Origin: Caldilinea sp. CFX5
GTDB lineage: Bacteria; Chloroflexota; Anaerolineae; Caldilineales; Caldilineaceae
Assembly: GCA_021405325.1 (NCBI GenBank)
Contig: QWII01000020.1
Span: 1-64,000, forward strand
Length of the DNA stretch: 64,000 nt
Reading direction: 5' to 3'
In this document: positions 3,925-63,708 of the stretch, in pieces
Layout of the letters: every line of letters starts with the position of its first letter
How positions within the stretch are numbered: the first letter of the stretch is position 1
Translations under genes and position numbers: made by a program
The notes under the pieces: generated by a model
Told to the model about the DNA's origin: nothing
Seen by the model: the letters and a program-made list of their open reading frames with translations, nothing else
The model's database searches: none

Positions 3925-4530
3925 ATGCTATCAAAATACGGACGCCCACTCTTTGCCGACCCCCTTAGCCATTTTGCGCGTCGATTACATACACTCGGCA
4001 TCACGCCCAATGGCTTGACCTACACCGGTTTTATCTTGACCGCCGTCACTGCTTATTTCCTGGCCCAGGGTCGCTTTGGCTGGGGGGGCCTGTTGCTGCT
4101 CTTGGCCTCTTTCTTTGATATGTTAGATGGCGCAGTCGCCCGCTTTACCAAACAGATGAGCACCTTTGGCGCGTTTCTCGACAGTACGCTCGATCGCTAT
4201 AGTGAAAGCGTCACCTTTCTGGCCCTGGCCTATTATTACTCGCGCCGACCCAGCACGCGTACCGAATTTATACTAATTTTGGTGATCCTGGTCGGTTCCC
4301 TCATGGTGAGTTATACCAAGGCGCGCGCGGAAGGGTTGAATGTCGAGATTAAAGCCGGCTGGTTACAGCGGCCGGAGCGGGTTGTGCTCTTGATTCTCGG
4401 CCTGCTAACCGGTTGGATGCAGCCCGTGCTCTGGGTGTTGGCCATCTTCACAAACTTCACCGCCGTTCAACGCATCTATGAAGTCTACTGGCGGACCAGT
4501 CAACTCCAAACCAAAATCGATTCAAATTAA
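3925..4530 (+). CDS. CDP-alcohol phosphatidyltransferase (phosphatidylinositol-phosphate synthase-like)
   Basis: Integral membrane enzyme that transfers a phosphatidyl group from CDP-diacylglycerol to an alcohol in phospholipid synthesis. The family signature D-x2-DG-x2-AR-x8-G-x3-D-x3-D is complete: DMLDGAVARF, then G, D and D of the segment ending STLDR. Several hydrophobic helices follow. The segment YTKARAEGL followed by RPERVVLL resembles actinobacterial-type phosphatidylinositol-phosphate synthases more than PgsA, so inositol phosphate is the likelier acceptor; that is inference. I prefer the ATG at 3925 over the upstream in-frame TTG at 3904 because AGGAAGG lies about 7 nt before it. 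201 residues. Confidence 0.85.
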   Translation: MLSKYGRPLFADPLSHFARRLHTLGITPNGLTYTGFILTAVTAYFLAQGRFGWGGLLLLLASFFDMLDGAVARFTKQMSTFGAFLDSTLDRYSESVTFLALAYYYSRRPSTRTEFILILVILVGSLMVSYTKARAEGLNVEIKAGWLQRPERVVLLILGLLTGWMQPVLWVLAIFTNFTAVQRIYEVYWRTSQLQTKIDSN

Positions 4531-17411: not shown

Positions 17412-20400
17412 ATGACCAGTAAGCTACCTAGCTCTACGCATTCGACTACCCCCTCGACCACAGTTACCAGCCCCCCGATTGTTATTTCGCTCTTTAGCAC
17501 CTTTAGTGTGCATATCAACGGCAAACCCATCGATACCTTCCGTTCCAATAAGGTGCGCGGTCTACTAGCCTACTTGCTGTTGACCCATCCGCAACCGCTG
17601 TTACGCACCACCTTGGTTGATCTGCTTTGGTCAGGCTATGACGCTTCCTCGGGTAGGGTCAATCTCCGCCAGGTCTTGTCCAATATCCGCGACAGCCTGG
17701 CGCCATTCAATCTCCTCAACGCCAACCGCCACCACGTCCAGTTGACCGTTGACCCGACCCTCGTATGGTGCGATGCGCTGCACTTTACAGCGTTGCTGGC
17801 CGCCTGCCAACAGCATGAACATCGGTCAGTGACAAGTTGTCTTGCCTGCCAGGAGCGATTGCACCAGGCGCTGGCGCTCTACAAAAGCCCCTTCCTTGAC
17901 AACCTGCCCACTGTAGAAAGCGCGCCCTTCACCAACTGGTTACAGAGCAAACGCGCCTACTTTGCCGAGCAAGTAGCGGTTGCCCAAACGATGCTCACGG
18001 CGCCGACCATACCGCCGAGTAATCTCCCGCGCCCACTCACATCGTTGATTGGTCGCACCGCCGCATTGCGCGAGTTGGCCGAGAAAGGGATGCATCCCAT
18101 CTACCGCTGCTTAACCTTGATCGGGCCAGGCGGCATAGGCAAAACACGCCTGGCTTTGGCCCTGGGCGAGCAACTGCGCGCTCACTTTGCGCATGGCGTC
18201 TGGTTTGTCGCCCTGGCGGCCCTACCCGCAGAAAACCCGAGAAGCAGTGAGCAAACGGAACTGAATGACCGCATTGCGACCGCGATCAGCACGGCTTTGG
18301 GCTTGCGGTTACAGGGGAATGTCCACCCTGCCCAACGGGTGACGGAACATCTGCGCGAGCAAACGCTTCTGCTCATTTTAGACAACTTTGAACACTTGAG
18401 TACAGGGGTGGATTGGCTCGTCACCTTGTTGCAGGAGGCGCCCAATGTACGCCTCTTGGTGACTTCGCGCCATCGCCTTCCGTTGCAAGCGCAGTTGGTT
18501 TATCAGGTCGCTGGTCTGGCCTTGCCGCCGGAAAAAGCCGAGGAAAGTCTGCCGCCGGATCAACTCATTGCCCATTATGCCAGTTTGCAACTCTTTGTCG
18601 AGCGGGCAGACAATGCCTCGTTCGCGTTTCAGCGCAATCCGCCCAATCTGGCCGCCATCAGCGCCCTTTGCCGGTTGCTGGAAGGGGCGCCGTTGGGCAT
18701 CGAACTGGCGGTTGCTTTGTTGGAAAGACAAACGCCCGGCGAAATTCTTCACCATGTGCGCGCCCATTATGCTGTGCTGCAAGCGAACCTGGGCGATCTA
18801 CCGCAGCGCCAACGGAGCGCTTATGCTGTCTTGCACACGGCCTGGGGCTTGTTACATGAGCAGGAGGCGCAAATACTAGCGCGTTGCTCGGTTTTTCGCG
18901 GTGGCTTTACCGCAACGGCCGCCCGACAAATTATTGACGCAACGCCTGCGACCTTGCAGGCATTAGTCAACAAATCGCTGATCCATTTCACGGCAGATGA
19001 GCACGACAGTGACAGTGAGAGTGACAGTAATAGTGATAGCGCCGGTGGCCGCTATACGGTACACGAACTGGTGCGGCAGTTTGCGGCCGAACAACTGACC
19101 CCCCAGGCGGCGCAACCGGTGCATAATCGCCATGCCGCCTATTATCTGACCTTGCTGGAAGTTTGGCAACCGGGGGCGGAGGCCGAGCGCGCTTTCCGCC
19201 AGGCCGTGCGGGTGGACCTGGCCAATGTAGAGAGCGCCTGGGACTGGGCATTGAGCAGCACTTTGGTGACGCGCCTGCCGGCGGCGGTCAATGGCCTGGC
19301 TGAGTTTTATGAGCTGATCAACGCGCATCATGCTGCCGAAGCCATCTTGCAGCGCAGTGTGGCGCAGGTGCGTTCCCGGCTGGCCGCCACGCCTACCACC
19401 GCTGAGCAATACAGCAGCCTCCAGCAACTGCTGGCGGCCCTGCTTGCACGGTTGGCGTACCTCTATGCCCAGAGCCTTGGCCAACCACAACAAGCGTTAC
19501 CCATTGGCGAGGAGGCATTAGCGCTGGCAGAAAGACTCGGCAACGCAGAACTGACCACCTTCACCTATTTTGTCCTGCAGTTAGCAGCCTTTGGGGGGCA
19601 TGGTTTTGCGCAGGGTCGCGCTTTAGCCGACAAAGGGCTGGCGTTGGCGCAAACACATGGCTTGGTGCGTGAACAAGCCCTGCTGCTGGTCGGCATCGGG
19701 CTACATGCGCCGCCGCTTGGCGATTATACGACGGGGCTAAACGCGCTTACCCAAGCCATCAAACTGGCGCAACAGATCAACGATCCGCGACTGGAACAGA
19801 TGGTGCGCACCACCTTGGGTGTCACCTATCGCATGGGGGGCGATTTTGCCCAAGCTGCCCATTGTTTTGCCGAGAATCTACCCTTGCTGCGGCAGAGTGA
19901 CAACCAGTATCAGATTGCCGGCGTCATGCTCAACCTGGGCATCCTGCATCTGTTGCTGGGTGATTATACGGTCGCGGCTGAACACCTCGACCAAGCGTAC
20001 CAAATGCTTACTGCGCTTGGAGAAAGACGTCTGGCGGCTGAATGTCTCTTCGCACTGGGGTGGAATTGTGTACAAAGCGGGGACAATCGTCGCGCCATCA
20101 GCTATTGCCGGCAGTCATTGGCGCAAGTTGTCAGCGATGACGCCCAACAGATGGCCTGGTTAACGCTGGGCGATGCGCAGTTGAACGCCGGCGATCTAGA
20201 GGCCGCTAAAGCCGCCTTTCTGCAAGTTGTCGCCATCAGTCAGCGCGGAAAGGGTGGCCCGGCTGAACGTTGGCAAGCGCAAGCCGGTCTGGCGGCCATC
20301 TTGCTGGCGCAAAATGATAAGGTGGCGGCGTTGGCGGCGGTCAATGAGTTGCTAGCAGACTTTGACCCAACCCAACCGGATGGCTGGCAATGTCCGCAGC

Positions 20401-20585
20401 GCCTGCTGTTAACCTGTTATCGCGTGCTGGCGGCCAACCACGATCCGCGCGCTACCGTTGTCCTCCACCAAGCCTGGGAACTTGTCCAAAGCCAGGCGGA
20501 AATGATCAGCGATCCAGCCTTGCGCTCCTCCTTTTTCACCAATGTACCGGTCAACCGGGCATTGGCGACTTTGATCGCCGCATAG
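17412..20585 (+). CDS. BTAD-STAND-TPR transcriptional regulator (first copy)
   Basis: A 1057-residue regulator of the AfsR/SARP-like architecture. N-terminal winged helix at about 25-110 (FRSNKVRGLLAYLLL, LVDLLWSG, NLRQVLSNIRDSL), bacterial transcriptional activator domain at about 110-190, and STAND-type ATPase at about 205-500 with P-loop GPGGIGKTRLAL (near residue 237) and LLILDNFEHL. A long TPR region (about 620-1040) completes it. It flanks the RiPP cluster on the upstream side and is paralogous to the protein at 26876, so control of the cluster is a fair inference. A Ser/Asp low-complexity insert (DSDSESDSNSDS, residues 532-543) is encoded by six 6-nt repeats. Confidence 0.88.
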   Translation: MTSKLPSSTHSTTPSTTVTSPPIVISLFSTFSVHINGKPIDTFRSNKVRGLLAYLLLTHPQPLLRTTLVDLLWSGYDASSGRVNLRQVLSNIRDSLAPFNLLNANRHHVQLTVDPTLVWCDALHFTALLAACQQHEHRSVTSCLACQERLHQALALYKSPFLDNLPTVESAPFTNWLQSKRAYFAEQVAVAQTMLTAPTIPPSNLPRPLTSLIGRTAALRELAEKGMHPIYRCLTLIGPGGIGKTRLALALGEQLRAHFAHGVWFVALAALPAENPRSSEQTELNDRIATAISTALGLRLQGNVHPAQRVTEHLREQTLLLILDNFEHLSTGVDWLVTLLQEAPNVRLLVTSRHRLPLQAQLVYQVAGLALPPEKAEESLPPDQLIAHYASLQLFVERADNASFAFQRNPPNLAAISALCRLLEGAPLGIELAVALLERQTPGEILHHVRAHYAVLQANLGDLPQRQRSAYAVLHTAWGLLHEQEAQILARCSVFRGGFTATAARQIIDATPATLQALVNKSLIHFTADEHDSDSESDSNSDSAGGRYTVHELVRQFAAEQLTPQAAQPVHNRHAAYYLTLLEVWQPGAEAERAFRQAVRVDLANVESAWDWALSSTLVTRLPAAVNGLAEFYELINAHHAAEAILQRSVAQVRSRLAATPTTAEQYSSLQQLLAALLARLAYLYAQSLGQPQQALPIGEEALALAERLGNAELTTFTYFVLQLAAFGGHGFAQGRALADKGLALAQTHGLVREQALLLVGIGLHAPPLGDYTTGLNALTQAIKLAQQINDPRLEQMVRTTLGVTYRMGGDFAQAAHCFAENLPLLRQSDNQYQIAGVMLNLGILHLLLGDYTVAAEHLDQAYQMLTALGERRLAAECLFALGWNCVQSGDNRRAISYCRQSLAQVVSDDAQQMAWLTLGDAQLNAGDLEAAKAAFLQVVAISQRGKGGPAERWQAQAGLAAILLAQNDKVAALAAVNELLADFDPTQPDGWQCPQRLLLTCYRVLAANHDPRATVVLHQAWELVQSQAEMISDPALRSSFFTNVPVNRALATLIAA
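19005..19040 (+). repeat. Hexanucleotide tandem repeat inside a regulator gene
   Basis: Six tandem copies of GACAGT-like units encode alternating Asp/Glu/Asn-Ser between the STAND and TPR parts of the regulator. Copies vary at one or two positions. A unit of six keeps the frame if the copy number changes. Confidence 0.85.
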
Positions 20586-20839: not shown

Positions 20840-21120
20840 CAGCGACATGGCAACGAAATTTACCGGACACCTTTGTTAGTCAACTTATCTTCCTTGCTAT
20901 TCTTCCACACAACACAGCCATTATCACAAGGAAAACTTTAGCTCACTACACCTGGTCGGGTGGCCAAGTTGTCGCTGACGGCTGCCAGCCGCCGGTTGGG
21001 CGCGCGTTGTGCCTTGACGCCGGCAGTGGCACAGGCAACACGAACGCGGGGGCAGGAATTGACGGTAGGGTTCTTGGTACAGCTTCTTACCGCAACTGAT
21101 TGAGTCAGGAGGGTCTGCTG

Positions 21121-21618
21121 GTGCAACACCTGCGACGATTACAACAAAAGCTAAAATGCACCGTTGCCGCCTTACGCCAGGTGGATTGGCGGCGGGATGG
21201 GTGGCTCTTTCTGCGCATGGCGACCGTGGCGGCCCTCACGCCGTTGCTTATGCGCGGTCGGCTCGCTCAAGTCAGCCGGTGGTTGACGGTTACGCCGACC
21301 ACGCTGCCGCCTGAACCTTGGTCCCAGGAAGCAGAGATTGCGCGGCGGCTGCACTGCATGGCGGTGCTCATGGCGGTGGGCCGACCGTTGATCCAACCGC
21401 GCTGTCTGACGCGCGGGGTCACGCTCTATACCTTCTTCCGCCGCATCAATCTGCCGGTCGAGTTACACTTTGGGGTGCAGCAGCGCAACGCAGCCTTCAC
21501 CGGCCACTGCTGGCTGGTCCTGGCCGGCCACCCCTTTGCCGAACCAGGTGATCCGACCGCAATCTACACCACGGTCTATCGGCTACCACAAGGGAGAATC
21601 GTTCATGAATACGCATGA
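21121..21618 (+). CDS. Lasso peptide B2 protein (transglutaminase-like leader peptidase)
   Basis: Predicted cysteine protease that cuts the leader off a lasso-type precursor bound by the B1 protein. 165 residues from GTG 21121; I prefer this to the upstream TTG at 21100 because AGGAGG at about 21108-21113 overlaps the longer form and is well spaced for the GTG. The N-terminal part (DWRRDGWLFLRMATVAALTP) is typical of B2 proteins. Catalytic Cys95 lies in IQPRCLTRG and His129 in FTGHCW, which is usually HAW. The acidic third residue is less clear (Glu141 or Asp144). Its stop overlaps the next start, indicating translational coupling. Confidence 0.85.
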   Translation: MQHLRRLQQKLKCTVAALRQVDWRRDGWLFLRMATVAALTPLLMRGRLAQVSRWLTVTPTTLPPEPWSQEAEIARRLHCMAVLMAVGRPLIQPRCLTRGVTLYTFFRRINLPVELHFGVQQRNAAFTGHCWLVLAGHPFAEPGDPTAIYTTVYRLPQGRIVHEYA

Positions 21619-22843
21619 CCTGTTCCTGGCTTGTTTACGCGACCCAGTCAGCACGGCGAAGCGAGAGAGCGTCGCCACTGTCAACACGGATGCCAACGCT
21701 GCTGTCGATTGGGCTGCCATAGTGGCAATGGCGGAAGCGCAGGGGCTGGCCCCCTTGCTCTACCACCGTCTGCGAACCTGGCAGGCTGCTCCCTTGCTGC
21801 CCCCGGCGCTCTGGCAGGCGCTGAAGCAAGCCCATCTCCAAAATTTCTTACGCAATCATCAGCTCTACCAACAACTGGCGACGCTCCTGACGGCCTTCCA
21901 GCGCGCGCAGATTGAGGTGATTGTCCTCAAAGGCGCCTACCTGGCCGCAACGGTCTATGAGAACATGGCCTTGCGCACGATGGGAGACCTTGACCTGCTG
22001 GTCGCCCCCACCGCCTTGCCGGCGACGATTGCACTCCTGACCCAGTTTGGCTACACCCCCTTAACGCCGATTGCGCCGCTGGAAGACTATTTCACCTATG
22101 CCCATCATCTGCCCCGTTTTATGAAAGCCGGCGCCCCCAGTGTCGAGGTGCATTGGACCATCACCCGCCCTAATCACACCTATACCATTGCGGTGGCGCC
22201 GCTCCGTCAGCGCGCCCAGATCTGTCAGTTCGGCGGTGTAACTGGGCTGGCGCTCTGCCCCGAAGATCTATTGCTCCACATCTGTCTCCACGCCACCTAT
22301 CAACACTTGTTGCAGCAAGGGGTGCGGTTTCTCTGTGATCTGGATGCCATCGTCCGCCACTTTGGCGCTACCTTGGATTGGCAACAGGTGTGTCAACGTG
22401 CGCAGGATTGGGGCTGGGCGCGCGGGGTCTATCTGGCGCTCCACCTGGCGCAGAAAAGCCTGGGGACGCCGATCCCAGCTACCGTTCTTCAGACGCTACA
22501 ACCGGCTGGGGCGCCGGCTAAAGTCGCCGAGTTATCGCGCTATTCCGCGCAGCAAACAGACGCGGTTGCCCAAGAATTTGTGCAGATGTGGCAGGAACCG
22601 CGCCTGTTGACGAAAGTCCGACAGCTTGGGCAACGGATCTTTCTGCCGCGCGCTATCTTGGCCGCAGCCTATCAGCTTACACCGGATTCGCCCTGGTTGC
22701 CCTGGTACTATCTTGTACGCATCTACGATCTCCTCCTGCGCTATGGCCCCATCGCCTTGCAACCCAAACAAAGTACACAGTGGGATGCCTTGCGCCAACG
22801 TAGCACCTTGTGGCGCTGGTTAGAGGAAGGGGTAGATACGTAA
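21605..22843 (+). CDS. Nucleotidyltransferase family protein (NTP_transf_5-like) of the lasso cluster
   Basis: A 412-residue protein with the signature LKGAYLAATVY followed by RTMGDLDLLV, matching the NTP_transf_5 family of nucleotidyltransferases that recur in lasso and other RiPP clusters. A metal-binding pair, Asp-x-Asp, is present in DLDLLV. Predicted to add a nucleotide or nucleotide-derived group, though the substrate in such clusters is mostly unknown. The start ATG at 21605 follows GGGAGA and overlaps the B2 stop by 14 nt. A longer reading upstream would run deep inside B2 and is rejected. The C-terminal half is rich in Gln, Trp and Leu without a clear domain. Confidence 0.8.
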   Translation: MNTHDLFLACLRDPVSTAKRESVATVNTDANAAVDWAAIVAMAEAQGLAPLLYHRLRTWQAAPLLPPALWQALKQAHLQNFLRNHQLYQQLATLLTAFQRAQIEVIVLKGAYLAATVYENMALRTMGDLDLLVAPTALPATIALLTQFGYTPLTPIAPLEDYFTYAHHLPRFMKAGAPSVEVHWTITRPNHTYTIAVAPLRQRAQICQFGGVTGLALCPEDLLLHICLHATYQHLLQQGVRFLCDLDAIVRHFGATLDWQQVCQRAQDWGWARGVYLALHLAQKSLGTPIPATVLQTLQPAGAPAKVAELSRYSAQQTDAVAQEFVQMWQEPRLLTKVRQLGQRIFLPRAILAAAYQLTPDSPWLPWYYLVRIYDLLLRYGPIALQPKQSTQWDALRQRSTLWRWLEEGVDT

Positions 22844-23019
22844 TTTAGTATGTTTAGTTTAAGCAGCATAGGATACCGTTGACGACACGGCTTAAACTCT
22901 ACACATAATTATACTCACGAGCAGCACAGAAAGTAATCCATTACTCCTGTAAAAAGTGTTACTTTCCGGCGCTCGGCGGTATACGTTTCGTCATTTATTT
23001 TCATGAAGGAGTCTTTTCT

Positions 23020-23460
23020 ATGCAACGCTTAAGCCAATCAACCGCGACACCACTGGAAGCAGTAGCAACGCATTCAACCGTACCACAACCGGCGGCACGA
23101 TCAACCCCCAAAGTCGCTTATACGACACCGGTGCTAACAACGTATGGCACTGTGGGTGAACTCACAATGGCGACAAGTGGATCAAATACCGATGGTCTCG
23201 GTGGCAACACGATCGTTATTGGGCCTTCTGACCCCCGTGTCAAAGAAAACATTGTCCGCATCGGTCAACATTCCTTAGGGATTGGTTTATACCTCTTCGA
23301 TTACAAGCCCGAACTGCGGGAACAATGGGGTCGGGGACGGCAGTTTGGTGTCATGGCGGATGAAGTTGAGGCCGTGCTGCCAGAAGCTGTTAGCACACAT
23401 GTTGATGGTTACAAAGTGGTGAATTACCGCTTGTTAGGGATTAATCGCATGTTAAACTAA
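23020..23460 (+). CDS. Lasso-type precursor fused to a peptidase S74 chaperone domain
   Basis: A 146-residue protein with two recognisable parts. Residues 34-49 match the lasso leader rule YxxPxLxxxGxxxxxT exactly: Y34, P37, L39, G43, T49. If T49 is the penultimate leader residue, the core is A51 onward, ATSGSNTDGLGGNTIVIGP, with A1 and D8 placed for an eight-residue macrolactam ring. At residue 70 begins a peptidase S74 intramolecular chaperone domain: S70-D-P-R-V-K75 keeps the Ser and Lys (five apart) of the self-cleavage dyad, followed by FGVMADEVEAVLPEAV and a C-terminal YRLLGINRML. In this family cleavage occurs just before that Ser, which would end the core at P69. Ribosome binding site AAGGAG about 10 nt upstream. 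It lies between the nucleotidyltransferase and the kinase gene. Confidence 0.8.
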   Translation: MQRLSQSTATPLEAVATHSTVPQPAARSTPKVAYTTPVLTTYGTVGELTMATSGSNTDGLGGNTIVIGPSDPRVKENIVRIGQHSLGIGLYLFDYKPELREQWGRGRQFGVMADEVEAVLPEAVSTHVDGYKVVNYRLLGINRMLN

Positions 23461-23502
23461 ACCATTACGGCGTGAGATTTTACCCCACCGTTTTGTAAGA
23501 GA

Positions 23503-23570
23503 ATTGCGATTAGGAGATTGAGAGATTAAGAGATTCCGGCAAGACAATCTCCTAATTTCTCAATCGCAAT
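23503..23570. repeat. GAGATT-word palindrome after the precursor gene
   Basis: The left arm (from 23503, words ATTGCGATT, GGAGATTGAG) pairs imperfectly with the right arm 23546-23570. It lies 43 nt after the precursor stop and 33 nt before the kinase start, so it could protect or end the precursor transcript and uncouple its level from the enzymes. The same GAGATTGAG word family forms the palindrome at 41914-41993. Confidence 0.7.
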
Positions 23571-23602
23571 CAGTCACTACGGTTTTACAAGGCATCCAAA
23601 TC

Positions 23603-24475
23603 ATGTTGAGTTTTACGATACAACCGGCTCGTCCCTTCACCCCACAGCCATTAGCCAGCTTTCACCAGTGGCTCCTTCCTGATGGGACGCTTTGGCTACA
23701 ATTTTACCGCATCCCAACCGGCTATTTATTACGGTTTACTAATTTAGCCGATTTTGAGGTTTCTACTGATGGTCAAACTATCTGTTGTTGGCCAGGGCCA
23801 GAAACTTCTGCTAGCACCATCGAACACCTTTACCTCAACCAAATTTTGCCCTTAGCTTTAGGCCAACAAGGGAAGCTGATTTTCCATGCCAGCGCCGTTG
23901 AAATAGGGGATGTAGCCGTTGCCTTTATGGGAGCTTCAGGGCGCGGCAAATCGACGTTAGCCGCCACTTTTGCCACTACCGGCTTGCGTTTCCTAGCCGA
24001 TGATGGCCTGCTCGTCGAACCCCATGAGGGCCACTACCAGGTGATCCCTAGCCATCCCTCCATCCGCTTATGGCAAGACAGCGAACAGGCATTGATTCCC
24101 CCCGATGCCATCAAGGCGACGCCAGTGCAGTTCACATCCAAATCCCGCTTTTTATCTGGGCAAGAGGTTGTTTTTTGCGAACAACCCCGGCCATTGAAAC
24201 AGATCTACTTGCTGGGTGAAGGAATAACCGATCAATTGGTTTGCCAACGGATTCGCCCTGCTGTTGCCTGCATTGAATTAGTCAAGCACGCGTTCATCCT
24301 CGATAGTGTAGCAGCTACGTTATTAACCAATCAATTTGCTACCTTATCCCAGATAACCCAGCAAATACCATGTTATCGCTTAGATTATCCACGTTCTTTT
24401 GCAACAGTTACTGCAATCAAGCAGGCTATTATCAATCACGTAACAGATGAGGTACAACCCTATGAACTTACATGA
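23603..24475 (+). CDS. HPr-kinase-like kinase of the lasso cluster
   Basis: A 290-residue P-loop kinase related to the C-terminal domain of HPr kinase. Walker A GASGRGKSTLA (about residues 113-123) and LADDGLLVE downstream are visible. Homologues in lasso clusters phosphorylate the C-terminal Ser of the precursor. Here the candidate core would end in Pro if S74 cleavage precedes Ser70, so either Ser70 itself, Ser53/Ser55/Thr residues, or another molecule is the target. The gene overlaps B1 by 14 nt. More AT-rich codon use (TTA, CAA, ACT) than in housekeeping neighbours hints at acquisition. Confidence 0.78.
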   Translation: MLSFTIQPARPFTPQPLASFHQWLLPDGTLWLQFYRIPTGYLLRFTNLADFEVSTDGQTICCWPGPETSASTIEHLYLNQILPLALGQQGKLIFHASAVEIGDVAVAFMGASGRGKSTLAATFATTGLRFLADDGLLVEPHEGHYQVIPSHPSIRLWQDSEQALIPPDAIKATPVQFTSKSRFLSGQEVVFCEQPRPLKQIYLLGEGITDQLVCQRIRPAVACIELVKHAFILDSVAATLLTNQFATLSQITQQIPCYRLDYPRSFATVTAIKQAIINHVTDEVQPYELT

Positions 24476-24734
24476 CAAAGTTACAATTTCACCACAAGTC
24501 GTGAGCCATCAACTTGATGAGGAGACCGTCATCCTCGATTTGGCGAGTAGCACTTATTTTGGCCTGAATCCAGTTGGCGCGCAGATTTGGCAGTTTTTAA
24601 GCGCAGGCAAAACATTGGCGGAAACGTGCAATGAAATGGTCGAAAAATATGATGTTCCACCAGGCGTTATTGAATGCGATGTGGTTCAGTTAACCAATGC
24701 GTTAGTCGCAAAAAAGCTGATCCAAATTCACTGA
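24462..24734 (+). CDS. PqqD-like peptide chaperone (lasso B1, RiPP recognition element)
   Basis: A 90-residue PqqD-family protein that binds the precursor leader and presents it to the B2 protease. Diagnostic pattern: VSHQLDEETVILDLASSTYFGLNPVG, in which the beta strands and the Y-F-x-L-N-x-x-G segment are clear, then IWQFLSAGKTLAE and a C-terminal helix ending in LVAKKLIQIH. I take the ATG at 24462 (GAGG at 24449) rather than 24447. It overlaps the kinase stop and its own stop overlaps the cyclase ATG (TGATG), so kinase, B1 and cyclase are translationally coupled. Confidence 0.88.
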   Translation: MNLHDKVTISPQVVSHQLDEETVILDLASSTYFGLNPVGAQIWQFLSAGKTLAETCNEMVEKYDVPPGVIECDVVQLTNALVAKKLIQIH

Positions 24735-26620
24735 TGAGCGGCATTGTTGGCATTGTCCATTTTGATGGCAAAGCGGTGACGCCGGGCCAAATTGAGCGAA
24801 TGACGGCAGCACTAGCCTACCGTGGGCCAGATGGCATCAACCATTGGGTGGACGGCTCGGTAGCGCTCGGCCACTGCATGTTGCGCACCACGCCGGAAGC
24901 CCTGGAAGAAAGCCAACCCCTGGCCAATGAAGATCAAAGTATCATCTTAGTTATGGATGGCCGTGTTGACAATTGGGAAACCTTACGCCAGCAATTGTTA
25001 GCGAAAGGGGCCATCCTGCGCAGCCGCGCGGATGCTGAATTAGTGTTGAGGAGCTATGAAATCTGGGGAAAGCAGTGCCAAAATCACCTTGAGGGTGATT
25101 TTGCTTTGGCGCTTTGGGATGCCAGAAACCAAACGATTTTTTGTGTCCGTGACCCGTTAGGCAATAAACCTTTTCACTACCATTGGCAGGGCAACACATT
25201 GGCGTTTGCCTCTGAGTTACACCCGCTTTTGACATTGCCCTGGGTGCAGCCAGTTGCGAATGAGGGCATGTTGGCCGAATTTCTCGCCGGTGATTGGTAT
25301 ACGCGCGATGAGACGCTTTGGCAAGGCCTTATGCGGCTGGTGGCGGCACACACGCTGGAAGGCAATGCGCATGGGATAAAACTTGAGCAATATTGGCAGC
25401 CGGATCTTTGGGCTACGTTGCCCTATACCACCGAACAAGAATATGTTGAGCATTATCGTGCGTTGGTTTTTGAGAGCATCCGGCGGCAATCACGCTGCCA
25501 TAAGCCCGTAGCGATAGAAGTCAGTGGCGGGCTTGATTCTTCGGCCATCTTTTGTGTAGCCGAACAGCTACGCCGGACACACCACTTACCCGCGCCCGCC
25601 ATTGCCGGTTATACCTTTGCCTTTCCCGATACCAGCACGACAAATAGCAGCGCTGCGCATGAATTGGCGTATGCCCGCGCCATTGGTCACCATTGGGCAA
25701 CCCCGATCCATGAGATTGCACCGGCGCTGCCCCCCCTCGCCTGGTATGAGGAACAGGCAAAACGCTATCGCGAATTTGTCGGTTTCCCGAATGGCTCCAT
25801 GTGCTTACCATTACGGGCAACGGCTGCCCGCCACGGCAGTTGTGTCGTCTTAACGGGTGAAGGCGGCGACCAATGGGCAACTGGTTCGCGATTATACTAT
25901 GCCGAAGAATTGGCACAACGGCATTGGCAGGCTTTGTATGGATGTTTACAGGCCGATCAAAGGGCATTTGGCATGAAACAAGCCGTAACCTGGTTTTTAC
26001 GCTATGGTTGCTTGCCAGTTTTACCAACAGTCTTACAAGATACGGTGCGAAAATTTGTTCATCATTTCCGTAAACCTGCCCTTAGCGCTAAGTCACGCTT
26101 TTGGCTTACAACCATACAAGCTGAACGATTAGGCAACCGTATTGTGCAACCTGATTTTAAGGTACAGCGCGCCCATCAACAGCAATTATTGACCCTGCTT
26201 TCCCTTCCCCTTTACGCGCAAGTGATGGAAAGGGCGGAGCGGGATGCAGCACGGTCAGGCCTTGAGCTACGCCATCCATTGCATACCACCCAACTGGCGC
26301 AACTGGCCTTTGCCACACCAGCCCGGTTACGTTTGCGCGGCGATTTGGACAAAGCACTCCATCGCCAGGCTTTGCAAGCGCTCATGCCCGCCAACGTGTT
26401 AACCCGTAAAGGCAAGGCTGAATTTTCCGTTACTTTTCGCACACGGTTAGATGCGATGCAACCCCTGCTAACCCAAGCTATACCCCAACGGCGGCCAGCG
26501 TGGGTAAACGCCCAAGGGATGGCGCACCTTTACGAAATTTACCGGAACCAGCCCCAATCAGGCTGGCCCCTCTGGATTTTATGGGCGATTTATCTATGTG
26601 ATCTTATCGTGCCCGCCTAA
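24734..26620 (+). CDS. Asparagine synthetase-like lasso cyclase (C protein)
   Basis: Predicted to adenylate the ring-forming Asp/Glu side chain of the core and close the isopeptide ring with the new N-terminus. 628 residues. An N-terminal glutaminase-like domain begins MSGIVGIVHFDG, where the nucleophile Cys2 of true glutaminases is Ser. GPDGINHW and CVRDPLGNKPFHY are kept. The C-terminal synthetase domain has the PP-loop SGGLDSSAIF (near residue 263) and LTGEGGDQW. Loss of Cys2 suggests no glutamine hydrolysis, as expected when the amine is supplied by the peptide. The start at 24734 overlaps the B1 stop. Last gene of the cluster; no dedicated transporter or isopeptidase follows. Confidence 0.87.
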   Translation: MSGIVGIVHFDGKAVTPGQIERMTAALAYRGPDGINHWVDGSVALGHCMLRTTPEALEESQPLANEDQSIILVMDGRVDNWETLRQQLLAKGAILRSRADAELVLRSYEIWGKQCQNHLEGDFALALWDARNQTIFCVRDPLGNKPFHYHWQGNTLAFASELHPLLTLPWVQPVANEGMLAEFLAGDWYTRDETLWQGLMRLVAAHTLEGNAHGIKLEQYWQPDLWATLPYTTEQEYVEHYRALVFESIRRQSRCHKPVAIEVSGGLDSSAIFCVAEQLRRTHHLPAPAIAGYTFAFPDTSTTNSSAAHELAYARAIGHHWATPIHEIAPALPPLAWYEEQAKRYREFVGFPNGSMCLPLRATAARHGSCVVLTGEGGDQWATGSRLYYAEELAQRHWQALYGCLQADQRAFGMKQAVTWFLRYGCLPVLPTVLQDTVRKFVHHFRKPALSAKSRFWLTTIQAERLGNRIVQPDFKVQRAHQQQLLTLLSLPLYAQVMERAERDAARSGLELRHPLHTTQLAQLAFATPARLRLRGDLDKALHRQALQALMPANVLTRKGKAEFSVTFRTRLDAMQPLLTQAIPQRRPAWVNAQGMAHLYEIYRNQPQSGWPLWILWAIYLCDLIVPA

Positions 26621-26875: not shown

Positions 26876-29800
26876 ATGATCAGTCAGCAACCTGTCTCCA
26901 GTGAATTGTCTACGAACGCGCCACCCCCCATCCGCATTTGGCTCTTTGGGGCATTTCGGGTAAATGTCCAGGGGGTAGATCTTGTCAACTTTCGCTCGAA
27001 CAAAAGCCGGGCGTTACTTGCCTATCTCCTCCTCACCCATCCCCCACCGCCGTTGCGTAGCGATCTGGATAAGCTCTTTTGGCCCGACTATCTGGCCCAA
27101 TCGGCCCGGGGTAATTTACGCCAGAGCTTGAGCAATCTGCGCGCCACGCTGGCGCCTTTCGATCTGATCGCCGCCGATTATACCCATGTCCGCGTCAAGC
27201 TTGACCCAACCCTCATCTGGTGTGATGTCTGGCAATTTATGGAGCTGCTTGCGCGTTGCCAACGCCATCCGCACCAGAGTCTGGCCGCATGTCCGGCGTG
27301 TACCGCCCGTCTGCAACAGGCCCTTGACCTCTATCGCGGTGGGTTGCTGGAAAACTTCCCCGCGGTCGATAGCCCGCCCTTTCACGCCTGGCTACAGGCG
27401 CAACGACAGCGCTTTGCCACGGCCTTGGCGGAAGCCCAGGCGGCGCTTGCGAAATCCAGCGCCTTGCCGCAGACGCCCTCCCATAATCTGCCCTTGCCCG
27501 TCACCCGGTTTATTGGCCGGGAAACGGCGATTGCCGAGGTCGCTGCGCGCCTGCTGGGCAGTGGTCAACCGGCGTCACGCCTGCTGACCTTGACCGGCGC
27601 CGGGGGCGCGGGCAAAACGCGCCTTGCGCGCCAAGTCGCCGCCGCCGTGCAACCCCACTTTCCCGATGGCGTCTGGTTGATCGATCTGGCGCCGGTGACC
27701 GACCCCACCCTGTTGCCGGAGGTGATTGCCGATAGCTTACGGGTGCATGGCGAAGTGGGGCGCCCGTTGGTGGCGAGCCTCTTGGATTGGTTGCAGAGCA
27801 AACACCTGCTGCTGCTCCTGGATAATTGTGAACATCTGATCGATAGTTGCGCGGACTTTGCCGTGCGGGCGTTGCAGGCTGGTCCCGCCGTCCACTTGCT
27901 GGCTACCAGCCGGGAAGTGTTGAATATTGCCGGTGAGGCGATCTACCCCGTCGTCCCGCTGACCTTGCCCCCCACCTTATCACGCCCCTTGTCCGCCACC
28001 GCGCCCCAAGCAGAGGCCGATGACACCTGGCTGCAGGCGTTGCAGCAGGCCGAGGCGGCCCGCTTGTTTAGCGACCGGGCGGCTTTGGTGCAACCCACCT
28101 TTCGGGTGACAAGGACGAATGCGCCCGCGCTGGCCCAGATCTGTCATCAATTGGATGGCCTGCCGCTGGCGCTGGAACTGGCCGCCGCCTGCGTTAAAGT
28201 GCTGTCGGTCGAGCAGATCGCCGAGCGGATGGGTAATCGTTTCCGCCTCTTGTGCAACGGCCCCCGCGACGCCGTGTCCCGCCACCAGACCCTACGGGCC
28301 TCCGTGGATTGGAGCTATGATCTGCTGACCAAACCGGAGCGCGTCCTCTTGCGCCGGCTGGCGCTCTTTACCGGCGGCTGGACATTGGCAGCAGCGGAAG
28401 CGATCTGCGCTGATGATAGCACTGTAACGCAGGCGGCGGCGACGGGGGCCGGGCGCGTTGAAGGCGGGGTTGGCCTAAACGCGCTGGCGCAGGGCGCGAT
28501 TCTACCTTTGCTCACCCATCTGGTCGAGAAGTCGCTGGTGACGTGGGATGGCAACCAGGAGAAGACGCGCTACCACCTGTTAGCGACCATTCGCCACTAT
28601 GCTCAGGAAAAATTAGCGGAAGCGGACGAAACCTTGTGGCTTGGCCGGCGCCATTTCACCTATTTTTTGCAGATGGCGCGTGAAACCGAAGGGTTGATGC
28701 AACACGGTCAACGCCCCCTGGCCACCGCCTACTTGCGTGCGGATCATGACAATTTGCGTGCTGCGCTGCTCTGGGCTTGCCGCCACGATGGGGAAGCCGC
28801 CTGTCACCTGGTGGGGCTGCTCCGTTGGTTCTGGCTCCATGCCGATTTCATCGTCGAGAGCGAAGGGTGGCATCAACGGGTGTTGGCGTTGCCGGCAACG
28901 GCCACCCTCACCCGCGGCCGGGCGCTGGCGACCCTTAGCCACGCTTCCCTCCAGATCTACACAAATCGCCTGAACCCGCAGTTCTTACAAGAAGCAGTCG
29001 CCAACTTTCAGGCGTTGAATGACCCGGTCTACTTGTGTGAAGCAGTGCTGTGGCTGGGCTTAGTGCTACCCTTTCTGGGCAAAGCCGAAGAAGCCCGCCG
29101 CCTCTTTAGCCAATATGAACCGTTGCTGCGTCAGGCAGCCACACCGTTGGTCTTGGGGCAGGCCCTGGTGCATTGGGCCAAGACGCAACCCGACTTTGCC
29201 CACGCCCAACCCTTGTATGAAGAAGCGCTGACCCTCGGTCAGCAGTGGCAAGAGCCGGTGATCCTGGCCAATGCCTATCTAGGGCTAGGCGATTGGGCGC
29301 AGGGGGCGCAAGAGTATGACCGCGCGCGCGCCTATCATCTGGAAGGGCTGGCCTGTATGCGCCGGGTGGGAACTACCTGGCTGATCGCCACGGCCTTACA
29401 ACATGTGGGGACGGCGATCGGTTGGAGCGGCGATTGTCAGGCGGCGCGCAGCTACTTTGCCGAAGGGCTGCACCTGGCACGCACGGTTGGCTATGAACGG
29501 TATATGGCAACCGTTTTGGCGCAACTGGCACAGATTGCCGCCCGGCAAGGTCAGTTTGACGCGGCGGAAGGCTATCTAGCGGAAGCTGTGGCGATCTGTC
29601 GTGCGCGAATGCTGCCCCATGGGCTGATCCTTTGTCTGATTGTTTACGCAAGTTTACGCTATTGGCAAGGAGAGCCGGCGCTGGCCGTGCGTTTACTGGC
29701 GCTGGAGGCGGTGCGCAAGACCCCCTTTCCCTTTGATGCCCGCCTGCGCGCAGAGACGCTGGCCGCCGCCCGCTACCACCTATCCGAAGCCGAATTTACC

Positions 29801-29968
29801 GCCGCCCAAGCGGCCGGACAAAGCTTGACTGTCGAAACCGCCCTGGTCTATGCCTGCGCCTCTGTGCGTACAAGCGCAGAGACAATGGTCATGCCTGTAA
29901 CACCCCCTGTGCCGGCGCCTGTGGCTGCGCTGCCAACGGCCCCTGCGCAACCGCCGCCGATCCAATAG
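26876..29968 (+). CDS. BTAD-STAND-TPR transcriptional regulator (second copy)
   Basis: A 1030-residue paralogue of the regulator at 17412, sharing FRSNK-RALLAYLLLTHP-type sequence in the winged helix (about 35-60). The same order follows: BTAD domain with the Cys-x2-Cys segment CPACTARLQQALDLY, STAND ATPase with P-loop GAGGAGKTRLAR (near residue 240) and LLLLLDNCEHL, then TPR-like helices. Residues after about 1005 are Pro/Ala/Thr-rich. It sits 255 nt after the cyclase stop on the same strand; a TATAAT at 26862-26867 and a small AGTTTTTCAAAAACT palindrome at 26833-26847 precede the start. Flanking placement suggests that the two regulators govern the cluster. Confidence 0.88.
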   Translation: MISQQPVSSELSTNAPPPIRIWLFGAFRVNVQGVDLVNFRSNKSRALLAYLLLTHPPPPLRSDLDKLFWPDYLAQSARGNLRQSLSNLRATLAPFDLIAADYTHVRVKLDPTLIWCDVWQFMELLARCQRHPHQSLAACPACTARLQQALDLYRGGLLENFPAVDSPPFHAWLQAQRQRFATALAEAQAALAKSSALPQTPSHNLPLPVTRFIGRETAIAEVAARLLGSGQPASRLLTLTGAGGAGKTRLARQVAAAVQPHFPDGVWLIDLAPVTDPTLLPEVIADSLRVHGEVGRPLVASLLDWLQSKHLLLLLDNCEHLIDSCADFAVRALQAGPAVHLLATSREVLNIAGEAIYPVVPLTLPPTLSRPLSATAPQAEADDTWLQALQQAEAARLFSDRAALVQPTFRVTRTNAPALAQICHQLDGLPLALELAAACVKVLSVEQIAERMGNRFRLLCNGPRDAVSRHQTLRASVDWSYDLLTKPERVLLRRLALFTGGWTLAAAEAICADDSTVTQAAATGAGRVEGGVGLNALAQGAILPLLTHLVEKSLVTWDGNQEKTRYHLLATIRHYAQEKLAEADETLWLGRRHFTYFLQMARETEGLMQHGQRPLATAYLRADHDNLRAALLWACRHDGEAACHLVGLLRWFWLHADFIVESEGWHQRVLALPATATLTRGRALATLSHASLQIYTNRLNPQFLQEAVANFQALNDPVYLCEAVLWLGLVLPFLGKAEEARRLFSQYEPLLRQAATPLVLGQALVHWAKTQPDFAHAQPLYEEALTLGQQWQEPVILANAYLGLGDWAQGAQEYDRARAYHLEGLACMRRVGTTWLIATALQHVGTAIGWSGDCQAARSYFAEGLHLARTVGYERYMATVLAQLAQIAARQGQFDAAEGYLAEAVAICRARMLPHGLILCLIVYASLRYWQGEPALAVRLLALEAVRKTPFPFDARLRAETLAAARYHLSEAEFTAAQAAGQSLTVETALVYACASVRTSAETMVMPVTPPVPAPVAALPTAPAQPPPIQ

Positions 29969-52852: not shown

Positions 52853-53257
52853 GGGGATGTCCGGTTTCGACGGGGCAGGAAGTGCTTTGATCGCAGGTCG
52901 TAGAGCGTGTGGCTACGTAAAAAGACGCAAAACCTATAAATGCCAACACAGGCAAATCCTTCAACTTCGGTTTCGCTAGCGCCCCTATGGCGGCTGCTGC
53001 CTAATCAAGCTGAAGTGATCCTCTAATCCAGGATCACGGCCCGTTCTAGCGCTACTCGCAGGCTGAACGCAAGCTGACATACACTGCTGAGGTGCGGGGG
53101 CTTGACGCCGATACGGCCCCCTAAGACGAATCGGCTAGGTGGGCATGTGCATCCCGTCGCCCGGAGGCTGCCCAGCGAAACACCAAAGGTGGCGACTAAA
53201 CCTGTAGAAGTCTCTGTACAAATGTTTCGGACGCGGGTTCAACTCCCGCCATCTCCA
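52853..53257 (+). ncRNA. ssrA: Transfer-messenger RNA (tmRNA)
   Basis: Rescues stalled ribosomes by acting as tRNA-Ala and then as mRNA for a degradation tag. The 5' end GGGGATG (52853-52859) pairs with CATCTCC (53250-53256); the T-arm is GCGGGTTCAACTCCCGC. The tag frame is 52942-53004 and encodes ANTGKSFNFGFASAPMAAAA, ending in AAAA rather than the more common ALAA. The 3' CCA is not encoded (ACTC follows the stem), so it must be added. Promoter and terminator flank the gene. Confidence 0.95.
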
Positions 53258-61790: not shown

Positions 61791-62426
61791 CTATGAATTT
61801 TTGAGCGCACGCAGGTAGCTTACCAGTCGATGCACTTGCGTGGTAGGGTTATCTGTCTGATTCTGTGCGGCTTGTTGACCCGCTCGTTCAGCATAGCGAA
61901 TCGCCAGATCGGTATAGGGAATCAACTGCAAGTAGATGGCTTGACTACCTTTGCTATACGCCGGTAGATGCGCCTTAAGATCCCGCAACACATGTTGCCC
62001 TGGCGAGTAGGATTCTGATCGGGCATAAGGCTTCGTGGTAAAGATGAAATGCAGCAGCAACCAATACTCAAAACATGGCACAGAGGTAATCGCGGTAAAC
62101 ACATCCGCCAACTCCTCAGCAGCCAAATCGCGCACGGCCTGCTGGTAGGTAGAATGTTCATCTTTATCAAAGACACAGAATACCCGATCAAAACCCTCTT
62201 CCTGCTGATAACGACGCTTGGCGTGAGCGACTACACTCTTTGGGCTGGGGTCAGAATCGCCATCGATCTCGACATTTGCGGTGTTCAACCGGAGATGCTC
62301 GACTAGCTCCCGAAAGTAGTTCGGTTCGGTCTTACTCCCTTCACAGACGATCAACACCCGATCATACGAAGACCGTTTTGGTTCTCGCCGCTGCAACCCA
62401 GGAATCTGTCGTGCCCTACGCGCCAT
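61791..62426 (-). CDS. RloB-like protein (TOPRIM-type partner of an AAA ATPase)
   Basis: A 211-residue RloB homologue. Signature segments: VLIVCEGSKTEPNYFREL (about 24-41, with the conserved Glu), VFCVFDKDEHSTYQQA with its acidic pair, and VPCFEYWLLLHF. RloB is often found with the AAA ATPase RloA near restriction-modification loci; the fold is TOPRIM-like, and nuclease activity is suspected. The gene overlaps the upstream ATPase gene by 11 nt, so the two are co-translated. A defence role is inferred. Confidence 0.88.
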   Translation of the reverse strand: MARRARQIPGLQRREPKRSSYDRVLIVCEGSKTEPNYFRELVEHLRLNTANVEIDGDSDPSPKSVVAHAKRRYQQEEGFDRVFCVFDKDEHSTYQQAVRDLAAEELADVFTAITSVPCFEYWLLLHFIFTTKPYARSESYSPGQHVLRDLKAHLPAYSKGSQAIYLQLIPYTDLAIRYAERAGQQAAQNQTDNPTTQVHRLVSYLRALKNS

Positions 62427-63708
62427 TCACGCCTTCCCATACCTTGTTCATTGCACGGAAATAAGGCAATGCCCCATACCGCCCTTGCAAATAGTGCTTC
62501 TCTAGATTCTCCACCCCTTTACGCGGGCTGAAGTCGCTCAACGGATAAAGCGTCGTCGCATTAAACTCATCCTTGTCGGTAAACCAGATCTGGTCGCGCC
62601 GAAACACTTCCTGATTCAGGATCGAAGTCTCATGCGTTGTAAAGATCAGTTGCGCATTGTGTCGGTTCAGATGGTTGTCATGAAACAGCTGCACCAAAAA
62701 CTTCACCAGGTTCGGGTGCAAATTATCATTCAACTCATCTACGATCAACACCGACCCCTTTGCCAACGCGGCCAACCACGGGCCAGCCAGTGCAAAAAAC
62801 TTGCGTGTCCCCTCTGACTCTTCTTTGAGTTCCAGCGCAAAGCGCTCTCCCTCACTCCCCAGATGCACAGTCCTTACATCAAACTGCTCCCCATCTGGCT
62901 CTAGCGGTCGCTCCGCCACCATCTTCGACGCCATCTCCATCCGTCGCATGGGATATTTTAGCTCATATTGGTATTTCCGTTCAACCTCCAGATCAGCGAT
63001 GGCAAAATCAGCCGCCTGCAAAAAGTTCAACACCTGCTGCTTACCCCCACCGTTTCCTACTTGTTTGATGGTAAAATCCGGCGTCAACGGCCCATTACCA
63101 TACACTTGCAGTGTAGACTGAAACCAATCAAACACCGGCTGCAACTGTGTACTATTCAATTGTATTGCCGTCGATAGAAACAGCGCATTCGGCCGTGTCG
63201 CCTCTTGCCATAAATACTTCGGCCCAGTCAGCTTCTCCGTATTACCCCATTCATAACGCTGCGTTTCTGCATTAAACTTCCGGTCGATCCAGCTCTGCGA
63301 ACGCCCCTTGGGGAAGGCAAAGAGCCACTCTTCCAGGATCTGCTGCTTGGAAGCCACAAAGCCGTATTGATAGCGCACATCCCCGGCCACAAAATGCACT
63401 TCAAATTCTGTGGGTTGGCGTTGCGTCTCTGCATCAAACAGGTAAGGCGTCACCGGCACTTCATCCCCTCGTTGGCTCTGGGCTGACCATAACACGATTG
63501 CGATCATGGTTTGCAACGCTTTGATCAGGTTCGATTTACCGGATGCGTTCGGGCCATAGATCGCAGCCGTGCGCACTAAGTCCAGCCGTCCTTCCAACAC
63601 AGCGGTCGTATTTGCGCCTTGCAACTCGCTACTGCTGGCGCTCACCATTGACAGGGTTTGTTGTTGTTTGATTGAACGGTAGTTGGTTACAGCAAATTCT
63701 ATTAGCAT
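62416..63708 (-). CDS. RloA-like AAA ATPase (AAA_15/SMC-like)
   Basis: A 430-residue ATPase with SMC/ABC-like head motifs. EFAVTNYRSIKQQQTLSM at the N-terminus, Walker A GPNASGKSN (52-60), ABC-signature-like EESEGTRKFFAL, Walker B VLIVDELNDNLHP and FTTHETSIL. The layout matches RloA and the ATPases of abortive-infection systems such as PARIS (AriA), which also pair with a TOPRIM protein. First gene of the RloA-RloB unit; no methylase or restriction genes are within the window. Confidence 0.88.
   Translation of the reverse strand: MLIEFAVTNYRSIKQQQTLSMVSASSSELQGANTTAVLEGRLDLVRTAAIYGPNASGKSNLIKALQTMIAIVLWSAQSQRGDEVPVTPYLFDAETQRQPTEFEVHFVAGDVRYQYGFVASKQQILEEWLFAFPKGRSQSWIDRKFNAETQRYEWGNTEKLTGPKYLWQEATRPNALFLSTAIQLNSTQLQPVFDWFQSTLQVYGNGPLTPDFTIKQVGNGGGKQQVLNFLQAADFAIADLEVERKYQYELKYPMRRMEMASKMVAERPLEPDGEQFDVRTVHLGSEGERFALELKEESEGTRKFFALAGPWLAALAKGSVLIVDELNDNLHPNLVKFLVQLFHDNHLNRHNAQLIFTTHETSILNQEVFRRDQIWFTDKDEFNATTLYPLSDFSPRKGVENLEKHYLQGRYGALPYFRAMNKVWEGVNGA

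Follow-up and report, generated by a model that had tools for sequence, protein, structure and literature searches.

The closest described relatives of the system treated here are the clusters for the lasso peptides paeninodin and pseudomycoidin, in which an HprK-like kinase modifies a Ser at the C-terminus of the core (PMC9266682). A second point of comparison is the ICA domain of MyRF, a protein that is cut between P586 and S587 and in which S587A or K592A substitution abolishes cutting; a C-terminal coiled coil drives its trimerization, and altering the coil disturbs trimerization and blocks autocleavage (PMC8326128). Both kinds of element meet in a 64,000-nucleotide stretch of DNA from Caldilinea sp. 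CFX5 (contig QWII01000020.1, positions 1 to 64,000; hereafter the window), where a single open reading frame (ORF) runs from a lasso leader through a lasso core directly into a peptidase S74 domain. Judging from sequence comparisons, this linkerless domain likely cleaves itself at Pro69/Ser70 and would thereby fix the C-terminal end of a predicted lasso peptide of 19 residues.

Among open-licence papers, no description was found of a lasso peptide or other ribosomally synthesized and post-translationally modified peptide (RiPP) fused to an S74, endosialidase, tail fiber or intramolecular chaperone domain. One paper names a B2, PqqD and Asn-synthetase-related cluster and, apart from it, a tail fiber protein among halotolerance genes, and the passages concerned draw no link between them (PMC10040529).

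The Precursor and Its Parts

Two sets of relatives underlie the counts given below. A protein search with the precursor returned 1670 proteins at E ≤ 1e-3, which may include other S74 proteins, and features of relatives were taken from the best 120 of these 1670 matches; a first parse covered 117 of the 120, with a few cores shortened by an early Ser, and a stricter parse covered 107, of which 106 were used. The second set is an alignment, A2, of 59 chosen rows, comprising 34 of the 120 listed proteins and 25 matches at genomic loci scoring at least 130. It takes in P0116, chosen in the knowledge of its Cys at the nucleophile position, and leaves out loci L013 and L074, which carry a TAG codon, the incomplete L024 and the divergent L087; locus L132 was found later. 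The parts of the precursor gene are as follows.

23020..23460, plus strand: precursor (A) ORF of 146 amino acids with an ATG start, comprising lasso leader, core and S74 domain (ORF list, profile matches, relatives)
23119..23169, plus strand: leader recognition motif YTTPVLTTYGTVGELTM, residues 34–50, with Thr49 at −2 (Y34, P37 and T49 in 59/59 rows)
23170..23226, plus strand: core ATSGSNTDGLGGNTIVIGP, residues 51–69, with A1, ring acid D8 and predicted C-terminus P69 (sequence and alignment)
23227..23457, plus strand: peptidase S74 domain, residues 70–146, beginning at the predicted nucleophile Ser70 (PF13884; MyRF ICA the best match, weak by fold)
23227..23229, plus strand: Ser70 codon, predicted nucleophile, with the predicted scissile bond P69-S70 (57 Ser and 2 Cys of 59; compare MyRF P586/S587, PMC8326128)
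23242..23244, plus strand: Lys75 codon, predicted general base (59/59)

Residues 34–49 read YTTPVLTTYGTVGELT and are followed by Met50. They follow the pattern Y34..P37.L39...G43.....T49, as claimed in the original prediction (YxxPxLxxxGxxxxxT), and two further claims made there are equally legible in the ORF: a core with A1 and D8, and a Ser70-x4-Lys75 dyad, here SDPRVK, that opens an S74 domain directly after P69. Pfam PF13884 matches residues 70–124 at 35 bits (cut-off 22). The core is 19 residues long and ends in Pro. The NCBIfam model lasso_cyano matches residues 31–56 (E 4.9e-5) at 23.2 bits, below its cut-off of 33; the window precursor falls below the NF033528 cut-off, and a relative, at locus L005, passes that of NF033521 (20.3 vs 19 bits). 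An AAGGAG sequence, noted by eye, lies at 23006–23011, 8 bases 5' of the ATG.

A loose regular expression for the leader matched the six frames of the window twice, in the precursor ORF and at an unrelated site at 4414, as against a mean of 0.25 matches in 20 single-base shuffles of the window. A chance motif as the source of the pattern is ruled out by conservation and gene context. A phage tail-fibre remnant was also considered and rejected: matches at E ≤ 1e-5 numbered 6 among 50,697 phage records and 1 among 72,556 plasmid records, with 39–45% identity confined to stretches of residues 70–142, and none included leader or core. A tmRNA gene lies at 52853, and the window looks chromosomal.

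Conservation and Gene Context of the Fused Precursors

Three leader residues, Y34, P37 and T49, are invariant in all 59 A2 rows, and the invariant Thr at −2 is a known mark of lasso leaders (PMC10885120). An Asp or Glu occupies core position 7–9 in every row, 54 of them at position 8 alone, with 13 acids at the 900 remaining core positions; among the matches listed and parsed, the ring acid stands exactly at position 8 in 104 of 106. Position 70 is Ser in 57 rows and Cys in 2 (the substitution occurs in P0116 and L021), and Lys75, H84, F93 and Y95 are found in 59/59. The Ser and Lys dyad is present in 106 of the 107 parsed proteins among the matches listed, the remaining one having Cys and Lys. 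F93 and Y95 align with MyRF Y615/Y617 in our own numbering. Mean pairwise identity in A2 is 0.53 for the leader, 0.24 for the core and 0.67 for S74. A conserved ring acid and a retained S74 dyad, on which the original prediction turned, are thus both features of the relatives.

The neighbourhoods point the same way. At 26 distinct relative loci (27 listed minus L139, a duplicate of L013), counting genes within the fetched DNA, a cyclase is present at 25, a kinase at 23, B1 at 21, B2 at 20, a nucleotidyltransferase at 20, a methyltransferase at 19 and an ABC transporter at 17. The scan covered eight families, with models that were started from 2–3 sequences each and given one round of retraining on these loci. 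Several missing neighbours coincide with contig ends, and the cyclase-less L024 begins inside the precursor gene. Fusions of lasso leader and S74 beside PqqD/B1, B2 and cyclase genes, which the original prediction had in view, are a recurrent arrangement (21, 20 and 25 of 26 loci). Because leader and ring acid are conserved among homologues and the genes around them are those of lasso biosynthesis, ORF 23020–23460 almost certainly encodes a lasso precursor, as far as its sequence can indicate.

Two features of the relatives may be recorded alongside. His84 (GxHPLG) is present in all 59 lasso S74 rows and also in P0152–P0154, is absent from a second class of S74 proteins such as L087 (see below) and is changed in L013; it is possibly an additional functional residue. 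Core tails of both fused and free precursors are often Met-rich (e.g., MTMAM, MNMLM, MTMML), with Met at each of core positions −2 to −6 in 12–24 of the 106 parsed cores among the matches listed; that such tails bind metal is a guess.

The S74 Junction and the End of the Product

Precursors that lack S74 and carry the same type of leader end in cores of like size, with a stop where S74 would begin. At loci L053–L073 their leaders often read YxxPxLTVFGSVRNLTG, their cores have D8 or D9 and the same length, and most have the same cyclase and kinase neighbours; both genes were found at 14 of 18 S74-less loci in roughly 3 kb scanned. Twenty free, stop-defined cores, a set restricted to tails of 10–44 residues, have a median length of 17, compared with 18 for the 59 fused, Ser-defined cores (Mann–Whitney p 0.93). 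We take 15 of these 20 to come from the order of the Aurantiacibacter record, G019. Individual cores run in parallel, as in the free GSAGRMNGDGGFMTMV-stop and the fused GSLGNVGDGGIMTMAM/SDPRAK. Loci L008, L014 and L138 each encode a lasso precursor with S74 as well as one without, and the cores of L008 and L138 all end in Cys or Cys-x, at the stop when free and at Ser when fused.

In two fused relatives the junction holds a TAG in frame: at the Ser position in L013 (7985–8420) and directly before it, at the last core codon, in L074 (minus strand), with the S74 frame open downstream in both. These codons may represent a recent stop, read-through or an assembly error. Their nearest rows in the S74 tree are intact (L010 for L013 and L017 for L074, with modest support), which suggests separate events. 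The chance that two random stops in 146 codons would both fall at those two codons is about 2e-4, a rough and post hoc figure.

Because free and fused cores are similar in length, the TAG codons fall at the junction and the cores of mixed loci run in parallel, the mature C-terminus likely lies at the S74 junction. These comparisons bear on where the product would end and not on the agent of the cut. They also indicate that S74 is an optional add-on, since cores of this kind occur in sister clusters that lack the domain. Such clusters weigh on an alternative in which the cyclase makes a lasso at the front of the protein and S74 is never cut off but persists behind it, acting as a bulky plug, an anchor or a unit for display. 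That proposal would fit the lack of a linker, the high identity of S74 relative to the core (0.67 vs 0.24), as for a functional domain, and a coil-free S74 that may have lost cleavage; yet clusters with the same enzymes exist wholly without S74, the junction coincides with the C-termini of S74-less precursors, and where Ser70 is replaced, in P0116 and L021, the substitute is Cys, likewise a nucleophile. We consider permanent attachment unlikely.

Evidence for and Against Self-Cleavage

The best PDB match of the S74 profile is MyRF ICA (7dc3; E 2e-4), with the dyad aligned and Ala in place of Ser587 in the crystal, and MyRF also ranks first, as a weak match, in a fold comparison of the S74 model. 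The window precursor has Pro before the nucleophile (P1); of the 106 parsed proteins among the matches listed, 36 share this residue, 25 have Gly there and 17 have Ala. Self-cleavage by S74 draws support from the dyad, the retained F93 and Y95, the coincidence of the junction with the likely C-terminus, and the fact that MyRF also cuts after Pro. In the proposed mechanism, PqqD/B1 would bind the leader, B2 would cut after Met50, the cyclase would link Ala51 to Asp58, and Ser70, with Lys75 as base, would attack the Pro69 carbonyl, so that S74 releases the tail. S74 would probably act as a built-in step of C-terminal processing that leaves the core without a free end until the domain has folded. 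The cut could precede or follow lasso folding, and S74 could act as a trimer or a monomer.

Several observations weigh against this proposal. The S74 part is 76–78 residues long in 104 of the 106 parsed proteins among the matches listed, and its predicted model ends without a C-terminal helix, so that the lasso S74 domains lack the trimerizing coiled coil of MyRF; this is the main counter-evidence. A coil-free S74 may trimerize otherwise, act as a monomer or not cut. The Ser-Lys dyad is, moreover, common among S74 domains at large, and the S74 frame past the L013 stop is still conserved relative to L010 (non-synonymous divergence, dN, 0.089; synonymous divergence, dS, 0.824), with His84 altered. 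In the model, residues 67–69, just N-terminal to Ser70, form a strand within a single chain; the mean predicted local distance difference test (pLDDT) score of the model's first ten residues is 58. Of the original prediction that S74 trimerizes and fixes the core C-terminus by autoproteolysis, the second part thus gains indirect support from the retained S/C-x4-K, the S74-less precursors that end at the junction and the two junction stops, whereas trimerization finds none in the length and model of the domain.

A different use of the same domain would be as a folding or solubility chaperone removed by another protease, the dyad being a relic. The family owes its name to chaperone action ("Chaperone of endosialidase" in Pfam), and the absence of a trimer driver from the model would suit such a role. 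A relic would hardly keep Ser or Cys at position 70 together with Lys75, H84, F93 and Y95 in 59/59 rows, and this explanation appears improbable.

A further possibility is that the kinase gates cleavage through phosphorylation of Ser70. Kinases of the PadeK type modify a Ser at the C-terminus (PMC9266682), a core-terminal Ser occurs in only 2 of the 59 fused cores of A2, and the next residue is Ser70. The kinase gene is nevertheless kept at L021, which has Cys70, and at L013 and L074 (whose neighbourhood is L121), where the stop falls at or before Ser70; this makes Ser70 an unlikely acceptor. The S74-less clusters also keep the kinase (14 of the 18 loci above) although 18 of 20 free cores end in a residue other than Ser, and a phosphorylation gate would seem to have very little chance of being correct.

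A Second S74-Bearing Class

S74 tails also occur behind another leader. At L087/L120 (L120:9357–12863), YHKPTLTKGSVLSDVTA is followed by a short acid-free stretch and then by an S74 domain beginning SDIRLK. PqqD (48.5 bits) and a lasso B2 (47.2 bits against a cut-off of 33) are encoded nearby, as is an HprK-related protein whose 26 bits fall well short of the cut-off. The L087/L120 contig, from a genome that may be incomplete, showed no Asn synthetase; other contigs of this genome hold three Asn synthetase matches of 22–24 bits (Pfam cut-off 21), each covering about 70–80 of 354 positions. Leaders of this second class (L120 and P0121–P0154) read YxKPTLTKGxxLxxVTA, and the stretch that follows is short and mostly acid-free. 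A search with 82 residues of the L087 protein listed 34 relatives, many with a VTA-type leader by eye and some with an acid in the stretch. The class is apparently cyclase-less. Since it carries S74 where no cyclase was found, the S74 tail does not seem to be tied to lasso closure.

Other S74 mini-proteins (P0146, P0153 and P0154, with P0134 similar) have N-termini of the form RR..hydrophobic..AxA that resemble export signals by eye. Short S74 domains behind both these and VTA-class leaders would be expected if the S74 mini-domain were cargo, with leader and core as an N-terminal address or cap. An address, however, needs neither a ring acid (59/59) nor a cyclase (25 of 26 loci), and the TAG at L013 and L074 would leave these loci without any S74, barring read-through; the cargo interpretation strikes us as highly improbable.

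The Cluster in the Window

The lasso genes around the precursor all lie on the same strand.

21100..21618, plus strand: lasso B2 leader peptidase, start codon uncertain (PF13471 49.7 bits; NF033537 52.5 bits, cut-off 33)
21605..22843, plus strand: NTP_transf_5 nucleotidyltransferase (PF14907 207 bits)
23490..23593, plus strand: predicted RNA hairpin between the precursor and kinase genes (−38.4 kcal/mol for 23455–23605, z −3.5)
23603..24475, plus strand: HprK-like kinase with H..K..DD residues by eye (PF07475 24.1 and TIGR04352 52.7 bits, both below cut-off)
24462..24734, plus strand: PqqD/B1 leader-binding protein (PF05402 62.2 bits)
24734..26620, plus strand: lasso macrolactam cyclase of the Asn synthetase family (PF00733 123.6 bits, above cut-off; NF033535 369 bits, below the cut-off of 525)

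The cyclase starts MSGIVG and so has no Cys at position 2. The hairpin could possibly raise the dose of precursor. No exporter was identified inside the window cluster. Two large ORFs with AAA/TPR or NB-ARC domains flank it (17412–20585 and 26876–29968), and we presume them to be regulators. Farther away, 61791–63708 on the minus strand holds an AbiLi/AbiLii-like pair (AAA_21 and RloB), a candidate anti-phage system.

Distribution of the Fusion

Where the matches listed carry a name, it is "hypothetical protein", "tail fiber domain-containing protein" or the like; one match, from a Caldilineaceae (Chloroflexota) metagenome-assembled genome, is 67% identical to the window precursor. When genome contigs were scanned, relatives of the precursor turned up at 24 loci in records titled as proteobacteria, and the taxonomic orders that we attach to these titles are assumed. 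Order- and class-wide samples centred on four proteobacteria-titled genomes, with the seed genome counted in each, had leader-to-S74 matches (E < 1e-35) in 4/296, 2/300, 1/249 and 1/229 genomes. Family-wide samples, searched with A2, had leader and S74 in 4/298, 2/64 and 4/117 genomes, the second match among the 64 being the divergent L132 (E 1e-21). The layout of leader, core and S74 is thus broadly but sparsely spread, over a Chloroflexota metagenome-assembled genome and several groups of proteobacteria. A query of leader and core alone gave no matches at the word sensitivity of that search.

A tree of S74 was built from 87 columns and leaves 57 of its 123 inner branches open. It groups 61 of the 62 lasso-S74 rows in a single clade (98/85), with L132 outside on a long branch; the fusion may have had one or two origins. 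The flanks of L016, L019 and L120 contain genes that, by eye, resemble exopolysaccharide or sugar-nucleotide genes, an identity we assume.

Significance and Comparison With Known Systems

We give about even weight to a wider proposal, that these proteins represent a widespread and undescribed kind of RiPP precursor processed at both ends, N-terminally by B2 and C-terminally by a built-in, coiled-coil-free S74 autoprotease. It would be used by lasso clusters of Chloroflexota and Proteobacteria and, separately, by the cyclase-less B1/B2/kinase class of the L120 type, with a stop codon at the cut site in some lineages. The S74-less lasso cores seen here end at a stop codon. If true, the presence of a built-in autoprotease at the C-terminal end would give RiPPs a new processing logic. 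It would also account for many small proteins that now bear the label "tail fiber domain-containing", and would provide a switch by which the peptide end comes free only once the domain has folded. The lasso S74 would, in addition, be a very small domain for examining whether self-cutting can proceed without a coiled coil. Fused and free precursors, together with the junction-stop loci, make the autoprotease reading directly testable.

The paeninodin and pseudomycoidin clusters resemble the window cluster in their set of enzymes and in the logic of the lasso leader. Pseudomycoidin, like the window, has a nucleotidyltransferase besides an HprK-like kinase (PMC9266682). A kinase gene of the paeninodin type is present in the window, with matches below cut-off, and at 23 of the 26 relative loci. 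The window precursor differs from both in bearing a 77-residue S74 domain after its core and in a core without a C-terminal Ser (2/59 in relatives). Among S74 proteins, MyRF ICA (7dc3) and the chaperones 3gw6 and 3gud share the S-x4-K dyad at the N-terminal edge with the lasso S74, and MyRF ICA, the best match by sequence and, weakly, by fold, also shares Pro at P1 with the window precursor. Unlike these three, the lasso S74 has no C-terminal coiled coil, and its N-terminal neighbour is a peptide core rather than a beta-helical stalk. Finally, the follower of bottromycin resembles the S74 tail in that it forms the C-terminal portion of a RiPP precursor and has to be removed (PMC10885120); it is removed by a separate amidohydrolase, whereas the lasso S74 tail is itself the predicted autoprotease.
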